Of a stretch of DNA of 64,000 nt, positions 4,960 to 44,525 are shown in pieces (position 1 is the stretch's first letter; every line of letters starts with the position of its first letter). Source of the stretch: Natronosalvus vescus (GTDB lineage Archaea > Halobacteriota > Halobacteria > Halobacteriales > Natrialbaceae); the NCBI RefSeq assembly GCF_023973145.1, contig NZ_CP099546.1, positions 1,736,001 to 1,800,000 on the forward strand, read 5' to 3'. The position numbers and the translations under genes were made by a program. Under the pieces are notes generated by a model that worked only from the letters and a program-made list of their open reading frames with translations, was not told the DNA's origin and searched no databases.

Positions 4960-5768
4960 CGCTCCACCTCCATCGACACCTCGAGCATGCCGTGGCGGGC
5001 GAGGACGCGAGCCGTCGCCGCTCGCGTAAATGTGTTTTTCGCCTCCTGGTCGAGCATAAAGCTGGTCGTCTCGAAGAGATACGCCGTCGATCCTAACTCG
5101 TGAGCAGCCTTCTTGAACAGGAGTGGACTCGGGTGGGTGCTCGGTTCGGCGACGAACCGGTGAGCAGGCATGTACCAGGGAACGACGTCGTTGAGCGAGG
5201 CGACGATTTCCTTAGCGGGAGCGTCAGCCGAATGGAACAGAGCCTGGCCGACGTAGCGCTGGTGGAGATCGAATATCCCGAGCGACCGGTGGAGGTCGAG
5301 TACGACATCTGGGTCGTAGCGTTCGACGGCATCCCAGATCCCGCGGGCGAGCTCGGTCGTCGGTTCCTCGTCGATCGGGAAGTGTCGGTTTAGATCACCA
5401 TCGACCCCCTCGCGTCGCTCGTTTTCGACGGCCACGCGATCCGTTTCGGGGACGACGACCAGCGTCCCCGCGTTTGGTCGCCACTCGGTAACCTCGTGGG
5501 AGACCTCAATACCGTTGTACTCGTCGCCGTGAACGCCACCGAAGACCATCACTGTCGCTCCGTCAGCCGGTGCTTCGATCGTATATATTGGGGTCTCGTG
5601 AACCGTGTCCGGAAGGAGCTGTTCCGTAACGACATCGTCTGCTGGAGGCCCGTTGCGGGCAGCCGAGACGAACGCGTCGTCGCTGCGTGACCTGACCACG
5701 GCCGTTGCGACGGTGATCGTCCCGACAGCGAGCGATCCGGCGGCACCGAGTACCGTCCGTCGGTTCAT
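4956..5768 (-). CDS. Succinylglutamate desuccinylase/aspartoacylase-family metallohydrolase, Tat-exported
   Basis: The protein (270 aa) is an M14-like zinc carboxypeptidase-fold hydrolase. The zinc motif GGVHGDEYNGIE gives His and Glu ligands near residue 78, DLNRHFP follows, and VVLDLHRS near residue 160 supplies the third ligand His. The N-terminus MNRRTVLGAAGSLAVG is a twin-arginine signal without a lipobox cysteine, so the enzyme probably acts outside the membrane. Family members cleave N-acyl amino acids or related amides, and the substrate here is unknown. It is followed directly by a small membrane protein gene with a 4-base overlap. Confidence 0.85.
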   Translation of the reverse strand: MNRRTVLGAAGSLAVGTITVATAVVRSRSDDAFVSAARNGPPADDVVTEQLLPDTVHETPIYTIEAPADGATVMVFGGVHGDEYNGIEVSHEVTEWRPNAGTLVVVPETDRVAVENERREGVDGDLNRHFPIDEEPTTELARGIWDAVERYDPDVVLDLHRSLGIFDLHQRYVGQALFHSADAPAKEIVASLNDVVPWYMPAHRFVAEPSTHPSPLLFKKAAHELGSTAYLFETTSFMLDQEAKNTFTRAATARVLARHGMLEVSMEVER

Positions 5769-11998: not shown

Positions 11999-12005
11999 AA
12001 TGAAT

Positions 12006-12127
12006 GGAGGCGGCGAACCGGGCTTCCCAGCGGGTCTCCCACGCCAGTATGTGCCGGAACGCAAACGAGCTTAACTACCGTGTTCGGGATGGGTACGGGT
12101 GGTAACCTCGTCGCTGTGGCCGCCGTA
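12006..12127 (-). rRNA. rrf: 5S rRNA, distal copy
   Basis: Read leftward, it has the haloarchaeal 5S sequence: GGCGGCCACAGCG at the 5' side, CCCGTACCCATCCCGAAC in the loop B/C region, CGTTCCGGCACATACTGG, and a 3' strand GGTTCGCCGCC that pairs with the 5' end. It differs from the second copy at only a few bases in the visible 120. Ends are approximate by about two bases. It is the last gene of the operon, preceded by a tRNA-like element. Confidence 0.95.
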
Positions 12128-12175
12128 ATGCCGACCGGCGGAATCGAACCGCCGTTTGATAGACCACTGTCGGTG
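12126..12175 (-). other. tRNA-like (T-arm plus acceptor) element before distal 5S
   Basis: On the minus strand GGCGG-TTCGATT-CCGCC forms a perfect 5-bp T-arm with a 7-base TTCGATT loop. The following GTCGG pairs with an upstream CCGAC (about 12169-12173), making an acceptor-like stem that ends where 5S begins. In Haloferax volcanii tRNase Z is known to cut the 5S 5' end at such a mini-tRNA. There is no anticodon arm, so this is not a tRNA gene. Confidence 0.75.
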
Positions 12176-12220
12176 ACTCGAGGGGTGCTCGAGTTGTATA
12201 TGGTGTATAGTGTATGAGTG

Positions 12221-12342
12221 GGAGGCGGCGAACCGGGCTTCCCAGCGGGTCTCCCACGCCAGTATGTGCCGGAACGCAGACGAGCTTAACTACCGTGTTC
12301 GGGATGGGTACGGGTGGAAACCTCGTCGCTGTGGCCGCCTGA
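12221..12342 (-). rRNA. rrf: 5S rRNA, proximal copy
   Basis: This is a second 5S gene, 215 bases from the first in register and almost identical across 120 bases, with the same terminal GGCGG/CCGCC pairing. Differences include one base in the CAGACGAGC/CAAACGAGC stretch and one in GGTGGAAACC/GGTGGTAACC. Tandem 5S genes occur in some haloarchaeal operons. Ends are approximate. Confidence 0.95.
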
Positions 12343-39528: not shown

Positions 39529-40305
39529 TCAGTATAGGAGACTACCGACGTTCTTCGCGTACGCATCCGGCAACTGGTCGATAATGTTCTCGGGAGACGT
39601 TTCGCCGTTCAGGTTGACCAGATGGGCTCGACCGGCGTCGCTGCCGTACACCCCGTGGAAGTCGTACACGAAGCCGTAGATGGCGACACTGTCCGGAACC
39701 GTCTCCGCCGCGTGCAAGAACGCAGCCTGTCGATCGACGTTGTACTCGACGAGCTGGTTGATGACTATCGGTCGCTCGGCGTCGGCATCGATCAGGTCGC
39801 TCTCGAGACCGTCCTCGATAACGGGAACGAGCATCTCGACCCACTTGGAGACGCCCGCTGGCCCCGGTGGCTCATTCCCGTTGGCGACGTCGTATGCGGC
39901 CGTCACCGCACCACACCCGGTGTGACCGACGATGGCGATGGCGTCTGTATCTGCATAGTAAACCGGATAGAGGAGACTGCCGTCGACGATTTTCTCGCCC
40001 TCGTGATCGTCCCAGGCCTGGTTCCCGATGTTGCTTGGGGTAAAGACGGCACCGGGGCGATCGACGGCCCACATCCCTTCCTGTGAGACGCGGGAATCGG
40101 CACAGCAGATCGTCACCACGTCGGGGTGTTGCTCCTCTCGAACGGGATCGAAGTAGTCCCCAGGAAGGCCATCGACGTGACTGTCGTTTCCTTCGAGCAA
40201 GGCGACGAGAATTTCGTCGGGATCAGGAGCGTCACCGTCGGTTCCTTCAGTCGAGTCGGCATCGCTCCCAGCTGGTGTTGTTTGATTGGATTCGCGCGTG
40301 GGCAT
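39529..40305 (-). CDS. Beta-class carbonic anhydrase
   Basis: A 258-residue enzyme that interconverts CO2 and bicarbonate. The zinc ligands sit in TICCADSRVS (Cys, with the Asp/Arg dyad) near residue 67 and GHTGCGAVTAA (His, Cys) near residue 125. The N-terminal 30 residues are acidic and disordered. It is probably cytosolic, as no signal is seen. The ATG at 40305 replaces a longer frame. It borders the putative replication origin. Confidence 0.93.
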   Translation of the reverse strand: MPTRESNQTTPAGSDADSTEGTDGDAPDPDEILVALLEGNDSHVDGLPGDYFDPVREEQHPDVVTICCADSRVSQEGMWAVDRPGAVFTPSNIGNQAWDDHEGEKIVDGSLLYPVYYADTDAIAIVGHTGCGAVTAAYDVANGNEPPGPAGVSKWVEMLVPVIEDGLESDLIDADAERPIVINQLVEYNVDRQAAFLHAAETVPDSVAIYGFVYDFHGVYGSDAGRAHLVNLNGETSPENIIDQLPDAYAKNVGSLLY

Positions 40306-40715
40306 ACGTGATCGCTCGAGGTCGTCAAGTAAAATTGTGCGTGATTTAGAACGCGGTGACTGGCGATCGGACGGAATCACGCCTCTCCACTGCTGTCCAT
40401 CGGTGTGCTTCCCCTGCACTATCTGTCGTTTCGTATTCACTGTGTCGGTCACTCTGTCGTTTCGCATTCACTACGCTGTCGGTGAACATCCATCGAGATC
40501 CCCGACGGCACTGTTTCAGTTCGACGCGGTACGATCTGGTGGTGATACTACTTGGAGGCGGTTGGATCCGGAATGGATGCAGTCGTCGTAAATGGGACAA
40601 TGTTGTCGGTAAGAAGGAGGGAGGGTTGAGTGGAATGGTGTTCTGTGGACTGAAGGAATGATGAAAGTGTGATAAAATAACCCATGTGATAGTGTGGCAG
40701 TGATTGGTCGGGAAC

Positions 40716-40735
40716 CCCCCACCCCTTTGTTTCAG
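40716..40735 (-). other. ORB-a (origin recognition box)
   Basis: On the minus strand CTGAAACAAAGGGGTGGGGG. Its 27-base surround is an inverted copy of ORB-c with one or two changes. The G-run is the haloarchaeal G-string. Confidence 0.7.
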
Positions 40736-40742
40736 GTGGAGA

Positions 40743-40762
40743 AGGAAACGAGAGGGTGGGGG
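40743..40762 (+). other. ORB-b
   Basis: AGGAAACGAGAGGGTGGGGG on the plus strand, divergent from ORB-a and only seven bases away. It has the same GAAACGA...GGGTGGGGG core. Confidence 0.6.
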
Positions 40763-40824
40763 TTAGAGGGTGACTTTTAGGATGGAAGGATTTATGATGA
40801 TGCTGTCTGAATTAGTCCGTACTC

Positions 40825-40911
40825 CTAGCAAATACAGCATATTACTAGACGGGTTGTATTTAGTTACTAGAAGCTACTAGAATCATCGCTCAATCAGCTT
40901 CGAGTTACTAG
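40825..40911. repeat. CTAG cluster / TACTAGA repeats
   Basis: Five CTAG tetramers at 40825, 40845, 40867, 40877 and 40908. Four lie in near-identical NYTACTAGA units. CTAG is a rare sequence in haloarchaea and the target of the orphan methylase Zim. The surrounding DNA is AT-rich. Confidence 0.7.
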
Positions 40912-41043
40912 ACACTCCCTATTACCGGAATTCTGGCTTCTCGGACATCTCTTTCATCCGTTCGAGGCGAAAAACCACCCTGAGAACGAATCATTTCCAC
41001 CACTAACCACCCAACACGCACCCACCGCTCCTCTGATCTCCAC

Positions 41044-41063
41044 CTGAAACGAAGGGGTGGGGG
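41044..41063 (+). other. ORB-c
   Basis: CTGAAACGAAGGGGTGGGGG on the plus strand. It is the closest of the four to the halophile ORB form and faces ORB-d. Confidence 0.72.
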
Positions 41064-41151
41064 TGTTCTGGATCGGGAATCTTGAGACGATTCTACCAAT
41101 AATACTCTGAAATTTCTCATTAGATCCCTGACTACTCTCTTCATTTCGATC

Positions 41152-41171
41152 GAACACCCCTTCGTTTCCAC
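41152..41171 (-). other. ORB-d
   Basis: On the minus strand GTGGAAACGAAGGGGTGTTC. It faces ORB-c across an 88-base AT-rich core (41064-41151), the usual inverted pair around an unwinding element. Confidence 0.7.
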
Positions 41172-41373
41172 TCGAGAAAACACCACAACTCGAAGCTTTG
41201 CCTCGAGGTTTCTCACTAACCCTCTCCGGCTTTCCACTATCATCTCCTGTTTCCTGACGTCTTTCCTCCTCTCGTCGTTGAGCATTCGAGCGTCCACCAT
41301 CTGGGGGATCTCGTTGCCACCAACGAACCTCGGTACATCTTTGCCATCGGCCCGCAAATCGCCATTCATAAAC

Positions 41374-42720
41374 ATGCACGATGAACGCTCACGCGAGCTC
41401 TACGATCGGGCGCTCTCCGTCATGCCTGGCGGCGTCAACTCGGCCGTCCGGGCGGCGATCGAGCCCTATCCGTTTTTCGTCCAGAAGGGTGACGGCGGTC
41501 ACGTCATCGACGCGGACGGCAACCGCCTCGTCGACTGGGTCATGGGACTCGGGCCGCTCCTTCTCGGTCACGATCTTCCCGATCCCGTCCAGGCAGCCAT
41601 CCAACGGGCAGCCAGCGAAGGCCCGATGTACGGCACCCCGACTGAGGTCGAGGTCGACCTCGCCGAATTCGTCGTTCGCCACGTCCCGAGCGTCGAGAAG
41701 ATCCGCTTCGTTAACTCCGGCACCGAGGCCACCGTCTCCGCCGTTCGCCTCGCTCGAGGCACCACCGGTCGAAACAAGATCGTCATCATGCAAGGTGGGT
41801 ATCACGGCGCTCAGGAATCGACCCTCGTGGAAGGTGATGCCGACCATCCCGCTCCGTCGTCGGCTGGCATCCCTCATGAGTTCGCAAAACACACGCTTCC
41901 CGTCCCGTTCAACGACGAGGAGGCCATGCGTCGCGTCTTCGAAGACCACGGCGATGATATCGCCGGTGTGCTCGTCGAACCGATTCTCGCGAACTACGGC
42001 ATCGTCCACCCCGTCGACGGCTACCTCGAGTTCCTTCGGGAGATCGCCGACGAACACGGCTCCCTACTCATCTTCGACGAAGTCATCACGGGCTTTCGGG
42101 TCGGCGGACTCGGCTGTGCCCAGAGTCACTTCGGCGTCACGCCCGATCTCACGACCTTCGGCAAGATTATTGGCGGCGGGTTCCCCGTCGGAGCGATCGG
42201 TGGCCGCGCCGACCTGATCGAACACTTCGCACCCACGGGCGACGTCTTTCAGGCGGGCACGTTCTCGGGCCACCCCGTCACGATGGCGGCCGGTCTCGAA
42301 ACGCTCACGTTCGCCGCGGAAAACGATGTCTACGAACACGTCAACGGCCTCGGCGACCAGCTTCGAAGCGGACTCACCGATATTCTCGCCGACCAGGCGC
42401 CCAGCTACACCGTCGTCGGCACCGACAGTATGTTCAAAGTCGTCTTCACGCGCGAGGGGCCCGACCGGAACGACCTCGAGGGCCAGTGTGAAGCTGGCTG
42501 TGTTCAGGATCCCGACTGTCCACGATACGAGTACTGTCCGAAGAACGCCGCGGACGTCAAACGAGCCGAAACCGAGCGCTGGCGACGAATATTCTGGGGG
42601 GAGATGCGCGAGCAGGGGATCTTCCTCTCACAGAACCAGTTCGAGAGCCAGTTCGTTAGCTACGGTCACACGGAAGAAGACGTCGAACGGACGCTCGAGG
42701 CGTACAAAGTAGCGTTGTAG
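41374..42720 (+). CDS. hemL: Glutamate-1-semialdehyde 2,1-aminomutase
   Basis: This PLP aminomutase makes 5-aminolevulinate for tetrapyrroles. The 448 residues show [19 protein letters not shown] near 110, [15 protein letters not shown] near 230, and the PLP lysine in [15 protein letters not shown] near 265. A Cys-rich stretch (four Cys in [18 protein letters not shown] near residues 370-388) is an addition to the family core. Start at 41374; upstream codons are from the origin region. It reads away from the putative origin. Confidence 0.96.
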
Positions 42721-43143: not shown

Positions 43144-43290
43144 TTGACATCCTCCTCCGCGTTCACGCGGAGGAATCCCACGGCTTCGCACCGCTGAGTT
43201 GGGATATTAGGGTTTGCAGTCTACCACCTCTGCCCGAGGTTGGAATCCTCGGGAGAGGTCGTGAAGGTAGACTTCGGGCTGTGCCAACCA
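43144..43290 (-). ncRNA. Candidate omegaRNA/reRNA scaffold of tnpB
   Basis: In this family a guide RNA is made from the 3' end of tnpB and the right-end hairpin. The CGCGGAGG hairpin and GGATGTCAA end are present, so the guide would be the next 16-20 bases downstream (43124-43143). The 5' end is a guess and expression is unknown. Confidence 0.45.
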
Positions 43291-44525
43291 GGCGGTACTC
43301 CTATCTTCGTCCAAACTGGCCGAAGACTCAGAGTTACTTTCATTGATATCGAGACGGATGTTCTCCGCCCCGTTCACATCAGCGTTGAACGCGCCATCAC
43401 ACCCCTCATAGACGTACAGTCCACGTTCGACACGCTGACTATCTTCTTCTCTCCCGCAGATGCAACACGTCTTACTCGTGTCGCGTTCGGACACTTCTAC
43501 GACCTCGATACCCGCAACCTTCGCCTTGTACGTGAGAATCGACGTGAAGCGGTCGAACGCCCACCCGTGCAGGTCGAGGTTACCGTGGCGACCCCAGTTT
43601 TTCGAGTCACCGTTCTCGTCCTCTCGAACACCAGAGAGTTTCCCGACGTTGATTCGACCCACGCCACGCTCGATACACGTCTCTACGATGTGTTTTGCGA
43701 GGCTGTGGAAGAAGTGGGTGCGGCGTTCCGACCACGTGTGGTGGTGTCTGGTGGCTGCTTTGCCACCTGAGTTGTCACATCTGGCGATCTCTTTCGGGAA
43801 GTAGTAGCCGTCCTGTTTCAGGCGGTTGCCGGGGTAGAGGTCGGCTTGCTCGGTGCTGTATGCGACCGCTGCGAAGTTACAGATACCGAGGTCGACACCA
43901 GCCGACTCGGTGCCGGGTGCAGCGGGCGTCTCGATCCCGTCTTTGCAGACGAGATGCAGTTCCCACCGCCCCTTCGCTCGGTCGTAGACGGCTCTGACCT
44001 GTTGCAGATTCTCGAGGGTGATGCCAGGGCGGGTTTCGTACTCGATGAGGATGTACTCCCACGCTTTTGGGTGTTCCTTGTGATTCGCGCCTTTTGAGAG
44101 CCGAACACGGTTGTTCTTCGTGTCGTGGCGGATGCCGTTTTGTTTCCACGTCACCGTGCTACGCGGGTGTTCTTCGTGGACGCGGCGGCCTTGTGAGTCG
44201 TAGTAGTTTTTTTGCGGTAGCCAGGGGGATTCGCTCGACTGTCAGACTTCCTCTTTCCGTACCACGAGTTGAAGGATTCAGCGAGCTCCTCCAGAACGCG
44301 CTGACTGGACTGCGAGTGCAGTCCTTTGTATTTTGGATGAGTCTTCAACTCGTCTTTGAGATCGCCGTGGTCGGGAATCTCGCCCGTCTCCTCCCAGAGT
44401 TGCCGGGAGTGGTAGGTAGCGACGTTCCAGAGTTTACTGGCCGACCATCCGTGCCGGTCGAGCATCCGTTCCACTTGTGAGTGGTTGAGGATTTTCGCTC
44501 GATGTGTACGATGGACTTTCATCAC
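43207..44525 (-). pseudogene. tnpB: RNA-guided nuclease tnpB, split by a frameshift
   Basis: Two frames cover one TnpB: residues from 44525 (MMKVHRTHRAKILNHSQVER) end at 44151, and the rest from 44154 (TWKQNGIRHDTKNN) runs to 43207. They join in frame if a run of seven A (about 44207-44213, minus strand) had eight, giving RKKNYYDSQGRR. RuvC residues remain (DLGICNF, KLSGVREDE, NADVNGAEN). The zinc finger CCICG ... YVYEGC has a Tyr where the third Cys is expected. It is probably a decayed gene unless the slip is programmed or a sequencing error. Confidence 0.85.

Follow-up and report, generated by a model that had tools for sequence, protein, structure and literature searches.

At oriC of Escherichia coli, GATC sites are clustered, and Dam and SeqA act on this cluster. 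For haloarchaea, Blow et al. (2016; PMC4752239, Fig 6D) described clusters of CTAG on the upstream side of orc1/cdc6 genes, and these clusters correlate with an orphan methylase of the m4C type. With that work, the notion that haloarchaeal origins carry clustered CTAGs, accompanied by an orphan CTAG methylase, has already been published. The CTAG methylase of Haloferax volcanii is encoded by zim (HVO_0794), and CTAG is dense at only one origin of this species (Ouellette et al. 2018; PMC5867850). m4C occurs at CTAG in Natrinema pallidum, a member of Natrialbaceae (PMC12160562), and the CTAGs in low-GC regions of Haloferax lucertense are often unmethylated (PMC11001535). A 2019 survey calls the role of haloarchaeal CTAG methylation open (PMC6471742).

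Another described system is the ucm element of Sulfolobus. It locates between the origin recognition boxes (ORBs) ORB2 and ORB3. Origin activity requires it, and the protein that binds it, UBP, makes contact with MCM (PMC12141716). UBP is confined to Sulfolobales and Desulfurococcales, and the same 2025 paper calls for a search for comparable factors at the origins of other archaea.

Here we describe an ordered array of CTAG sites in Natronosalvus vescus (Natrialbaceae), found in a stretch of 64,000 nucleotides (NZ_CP099546.1, positions 1,736,001 to 1,800,000), which is called the window below and to which feature coordinates refer. The family of genomes compared below (f1) is presumably Natrialbaceae, as judged from best matches to Natrinema and Haloterrigena. 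The array touches two questions, namely the purpose of the conserved haloarchaeal CTAG methylase and the accessory factors that act besides Orc1 at archaeal origins. We read it as a cooperative binding array for a putative origin factor that would work with Orc1 and might be tuned by m4C, with a probability of roughly 0.6.

Results

Five CTAG sites lie between two inverted ORBs

A preliminary description of this DNA had claimed five CTAGs in 87 bases, four of them in NYTACTAGA units, inside a putative origin. Coordinates and counts were both confirmed by a site search. The array occupies 40825..40911 (GC 38%), with CTAG starting at 40825, 40845, 40867, 40877 and 40908, which gives a spacing of 20/22/10/31 bp. 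Sites 2–5 read ATTACTAGA, GTTACTAGA, GCTACTAGA and GTTACTAGA, and NYTACTAGA fits all four. At site 1 (40825..40828, minus strand) the motif is inverted, reading TTTGCTAG on the minus strand and CTAGCAAA on the plus strand, and the CTAG is present in 42/42 arrays. The other four sites are on the plus strand. Site 2 (40845..40848, TTACTAGA) is 20 or 21 nt from site 1 across modules; site 3 (40867..40870, TTACTAGA) is CTAG in 41/42 arrays and TTAG in one; site 4 (40877..40880, CTACTAGA) is 10 nt from site 3 (42/42 arrays); and site 5 (40908..40911, TTACTAGA) is 31 nt from site 4 (41/42 arrays).

The array is flanked by inverted ORBs, both of which carry the haloarchaeal G-string. The left ORB (40715..40742, minus strand, TCTCCACCTGAAACAAAGGGGTGGGGGG on that strand) is 82 nt away and forms a 96% inverted repeat with 41037-41063, and the right ORB (41037..41064, plus strand, TCTCCACCTGAAACGAAGGGGTGGGGGT) is 125 nt away. 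They enclose 294 bp with a GC content of 46%, compared with 62% for the window. A G-rich tract (40745..40770) follows directly inside the left ORB, as seen in an alignment of 41 modules and in accordance with PMC3936714. In the same alignment, a conserved AT-rich block (40774..40824, consensus TcTAgaAcGggAagnTTTATg...AgAAAcAnaTCCGtAg) leads from the left ORB to the array. A third ORB-like element (41150..41177, minus strand, TCTCGAGTGGAAACGAAGGGGTGTTCGA) locates outside the core and is kept in most of the genus members checked. The inverted G-string ORBs around an AT-rich region are the architecture of an oriC1-type origin, which agrees with the earlier placement of the array in a putative origin, and we infer that the module would be an active one. 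GC skew, taken over the window and 40 further segments of 20 kb, was weak and irregular, too weak to confirm initiation.

CTAG is rare in the genome and dense between the ORBs

CTAG is avoided in this genome, as the preliminary description had stated for haloarchaeal genomes. The window contains 34 CTAGs versus 102 expected from dinucleotide shuffles. In a sample of 864 kb (the window and 40 segments of 20 kb, 22% of the 3.84 Mb genome), 312 CTAGs were counted (0.36 per kb) versus about 2996 expected from base composition, about one tenth. Between the ORBs, the density is 17 per kb (5 in 294 bp). Other AT-rich regions are not similar: 225 AT-rich windows of 294 bp (GC <= 0.48) have 0.43 CTAG on average, and the maximum of 5 was reached in the origin windows. 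In a scan of the whole 3.84 Mb genome, the array was the sole place with three CTAGs separated by spacers of <=30 nt. As a control, the reversed three-CTAG pattern (GATC) was rejected as unfair, GATC being common in the genome. A looser cluster of 5 CTAGs in 205 bp was observed at L203 about 2256-2461 (G000:C1 about 1,008,756-1,008,961). It lies in the source genome too, upstream of another orc gene and at a distance of about 2.2 kb from it.

When the inter-ORB sequence itself was shuffled, 1.6 CTAGs were expected versus the 5 observed (p about 0.015). Because this is only a modest excess, local composition accounts for part of the CTAG count between the ORBs, and this comparison is what speaks for chance or AT-rich composition as the explanation of the array. 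The uniqueness of the CTAG triple and the low mean of AT-rich windows elsewhere speak against it, and so does the same spacing in about 70 genomes whose spacers have diverged. The probability left to chance is negligible; conservation, which is the strong evidence that the array exceeds chance, rules it out.

The spacing and the flanks of the sites are conserved

In relatives of the same genus, the array and its spacing recur while the DNA between the sites has changed, so the repeats are not private to this genome, a point on which the preliminary description had made its proposal depend. The exact 20/22/10/31 pattern with <=3 of 20 mismatches was found in 58/125 genomes of the family, most of them with 0 mismatches. 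When 1–2 nt of slack was tolerated, the 4-site pattern was found in 70/96 family genomes versus 1/296 genomes from other families of the order, and the single match outside the family (G385) is a different sequence. These genomes are related and not independent, so that the counts overstate independent events and the p-values serve as guides only.

Over 42 distinct arrays, pairwise identity is on average 93% in the CTAG columns and 49% in the spacers and other columns. Site 2, which slides by 1 bp, accounts for the shortfall of the CTAG columns. The conservation extends into the flanks. TT before and A after CTAG are kept at sites 2, 3 and 5 (TTRCTAGA), CTAGCARA is kept at site 1, and a CCG at 8–6 nt before site 1 is invariant in the alignment of 41 modules.

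The phased pattern is absent from the family genera g2, g7 and g11 and from part of g20, which shows that the phased array can be lost or replaced and is not indispensable for a haloarchaeal origin. In two genomes of genus g11 (L165 and L166), an inverted ORB pair is lacking and CTAG is nearly absent from the surroundings of orc1, and oriC1 of these genomes may likewise have moved or been replaced. Plasmid sequences gave no match to the array. In a listing of up to 120 stretches, the virus contigs that fitted the 4-site pattern were simple tandem repeats or unrelated sequences, and the inspected ones carried no ORB-like site. Two genus relatives contain long iteron-like runs of the TTCTAGAA type, repeated every 17–19 bp (G001:C3:37498-37769 and G003:C3:34191-34467), which are possibly plasmid origins.

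The array is in helical register with both ORBs

The site offsets of 0/20/42/52/83 are near whole turns of 10.4–10.45 bp (R = 0.97, reached in 0.2% of random-spacing trials). Both ORBs were recognised in 49/50 modules; the remaining locus (L126) ends at a contig end. From the inner end of the left ORB to site 1, the distance is 79–84 nt in 49/49 two-ORB modules. From site 1 to the right ORB, the distance is quantised in helical turns, falling into classes of 197–201, 207–212, 219–220, 230–231 and 251 nt, about one turn apart. The best period is 10.45, and when the distinct distances were drawn at random 5000 times, the observed value was never attained. Insertions and deletions between the array and the right ORB appear to be tolerated almost only in whole turns. 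At a locus of another family (L205, G276:C35, about 5170-5249), seven CTAGs beside a different orc gene are spaced 11/20/10/22/11/5, mostly whole helical turns, and origins of other types may carry phased arrays of CTAG too.

The conserved flanks, polarity and phase, together with the phase relative to the Orc1 sites, probably resemble an array that is bound cooperatively by a protein contacting Orc1 or arranged with it. The same phase could be read as a matter of DNA mechanics, in which the phasing of CTAG/TpA steps would by itself, without any dedicated protein, render the segment flexible, curved or easy to melt. The array is indeed the part of the inter-ORB DNA richest in AT and TpA (GC 33–40%; 11 TpA in 84 bp), its sites are phased at about 10.4 bp, and m4C could alter DNA melting. 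However, flexibility requires neither an exact CTAG at every position nor asymmetric flanks, with TT preceding it and A following, and the AT-rich spacers have been allowed to drift to 49% identity. We consider such a protein-free role distinctly improbable, and prefer a bound array.

The array is linked to the ORB pair and not to any gene

In most of the other array-bearing genera of the family that were examined, the ORB-array-ORB module is about 0.5–1.3 kb from the ortholog of the Orc1/Cdc6 gene that locates at G000:C1:430977-432581 (431 kb) in the source genome. The origin-associated genes oapA and oapB lie on the other side of the module in these genera; OapA is the protein now called ArvA, a vesiculating GTPase (PMC10927574). 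By its gene order, the orc1-module-oapA/oapB arrangement corresponds to that of oriC1.

The module of the source genome, at about 1,776,900, is orthologous to this oriC1 module of relatives, but it is 1.3 Mb from orc1, and the 64-kb window contains no orc gene. Its left neighbour is a beta-carbonic anhydrase gene (39529..40305, minus strand; Pfam Pro_CA), which is the same neighbour in genus relatives, and its right neighbour is a class-III aminotransferase gene (41374..42720, plus strand; Pfam Aminotran_3), probably hemL for glutamate-1-semialdehyde aminomutase, as homologues are so annotated. Upstream of orc1 in the source genome, one ORB-like site and no inverted pair was found. The uncoupling is genus-wide, with carbonic anhydrase and HemL as the neighbours of the oriC1 core. 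Separately, in a genome of another genus (G067; L415, L159), about 160 kb lie between the module and orc1, with oapAB still adjoining the module. In G068 (L416), the 10 kb that surround the module contain no orc1, and the oriC1 core is apparently uncoupled there as well. As a probe for relatives, HemL was unsuitable and returned mostly non-haloarchaeal loci, since it is a neighbour of the origin in this genus only. Just downstream of hemL, the window contains an IS605-family OrfB/TnpB-like gene with a small upstream reading frame (43207-44525). Two tandem 5S rRNA genes (12005-12342) belong to the terminal part of an rRNA operon whose end is about 24 kb from the origin.

These arrangements bear on whether the array could regulate a neighbour, such as orc1 or hemL, as a promoter or operator. 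In favour of this, the region is intergenic, with divergent genes on its two sides, and orc1 is one of the neighbours in most genera. Against this, the neighbours are wholly different among genomes (orc1/oapA, another gene/oapA, or carbonic anhydrase/HemL) while the register between array and ORBs stays fixed, and in the source genus a role in the orc1 promoter is ruled out by the distance of 1.3 Mb. A promoter function is thus very improbable. Since the array and the ORB pair travel together whatever gene adjoins, we conclude from the compared gene orders that the array belongs to the origin and not to an orc1 promoter.

CTAG enrichment and Zim are broader than the phased array

Eight other families were sampled with 31 oriC1 regions. 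The CTAG density between their ORBs is 10–20 per kb in most families and 6 in f5, versus 0.3–0.9 outside, and the CTAG spacing is irregular. When 52 regions were pooled, no tetranucleotide was as strongly over-represented as CTAG (205 seen versus 69 expected). The phased array is best read as a family-specific, ordered form of a broader CTAG enrichment at origins.

The CTAG methylase Zim, which had been named in the preliminary description, is encoded in the source genome by an ortholog with a TSPPY motif (G000:C1:2776711-2777775). Over 93% of its length, this ortholog has 48% identity with a methyltransferase of the Methanothermobacter plasmid pFZ1, whose gene adjoins an MjaI-family endonuclease gene. 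The pFZ1 enzyme is presumably the CTAG methylase M.MthZI, which is plasmid-borne. This identification rests partly on PMC5867850. No MjaI-like gene was found in the 3.7 kb that surround the Zim gene. Zim was detected in 111/111 near-complete genomes of the family, including those without the phased array. Outside the family, 4/39 genomes are without Zim, all of them in the family with few CTAGs at oriC1.

The CTAGs might mainly be m4C marks, which would be hemimethylated after firing and would delay re-initiation through a SeqA-like reader or through the methylation itself. The presence of the Zim ortholog and its similarity to an enzyme encoded beside an MjaI-family endonuclease gene are in favour of such marks, as are the enrichment of CTAG between the oriC1 ORBs in every family sampled, although weak in f5, and the published correlation of CTAG clusters upstream of orc1/cdc6 with the orphan methylase (PMC4752239). 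Yet Zim needs CTAG alone, whereas flanks, polarity and rotational phase are conserved, and family genomes without the phased array also have Zim. In Haloferax volcanii, zim deletion is viable and the CTAG-dense origin is a single one (PMC5867850). The CTAG density at oriC1 of f5 is low with or without Zim, in genomes too few to decide the matter. Marks of this kind alone are an unlikely explanation, and SeqA-like sequestration at the array is, by analogy, possible.

The preliminary description had proposed this kind of methylation mark, and the part of it that stands is the origin, the avoidance of CTAG, the conserved cluster and Zim; the conserved flanks and spacing exceed what a 4-bp mark needs. 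Its alternative, that the repeats are sites of another protein, seems favoured by these same flanks and by the helical spacing, possibly with methylation in addition.

Discussion

The preferred reading, a cooperative array bound together with Orc1, can be put as a model. The 87-bp array would be a structural part of oriC1, placed in the DNA-unwinding region between the inverted Orc1-binding ORBs. Each CTAG would form the core of a putative binding site TTRCTAGA, with site 1 inverted relative to sites 2–5. Because the sites are 1, 2 or 3 helical turns apart and are in fixed register with both ORBs, the origin factor and Orc1 probably form one complex on one face of the helix, and this complex would organise the region of MCM loading and duplex opening. 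A precedent for such a position and role exists in the unwinding region of Sulfolobus origins, with UBP at the ucm element. Since CTAG is targeted by the m4C methylase Zim and otherwise avoided, either the binding of the factor or the ease of opening is probably modulated by whether the ten cytosines of these sites are methylated.

A stronger version would assign the decision itself to methylation: a dedicated haloarchaeal factor would read the m4C state of the array and, with Orc1 on the ORBs, decide the firing of oriC1, as a methylation-sensitive licensing that is unrelated in sequence to SeqA/GATC. We hold this version as tentative, and on balance doubtful.

The array offers an exact target of 87 bp, in which the spacing of the five sites follows a rule and the sites keep a rotational register relative to the ORBs. 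Such a defined target allows protein binding, methylation and DNA mechanics to be separated. The signature of the array also locates an oriC1 that does not adjoin an orc gene, a case missed by prediction from orc adjacency.

Compared with Escherichia coli, the likeness is that the target sites of a methylase are clustered at an origin. The differences are that the sites here are m4C CTAG and not m6A GATC, and that they keep a fixed helical register with the initiator boxes.

The clusters of Blow et al. share with this locus the CTAG enrichment at a haloarchaeal origin and a CTAG methylase, which in the genome here is a candidate orphan. In contrast, their observation is a motif density around orc genes, while the locus here has a five-site array in register with the ORBs and no orc gene adjacent. 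Among the papers located, no earlier description of the phased spacing or of the ORB register was found, most subscription journals being outside the literature search; within the same coverage, no earlier description of an array surviving its uncoupling from orc1 was found either.

The oriC1 of Haloarcula hispanica (PMC3936714) and other orc1-adjacent origins (PMC3528665) have the same inverted G-string ORBs, AT-rich centre and G-rich tracts inside the ORBs. CTAG is unmentioned in both papers, and those origins adjoin orc/cdc6, which the origin here does not.

The ucm/UBP system (PMC12141716) is similar in that a conserved non-ORB element locates in the unwinding region between inverted Orc1-binding sites, as the array does here. 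The two differ in form and lineage: ucm is a single 11-bp element, whereas the array consists of five CTAG-centred sites and belongs to a euryarchaeal lineage.
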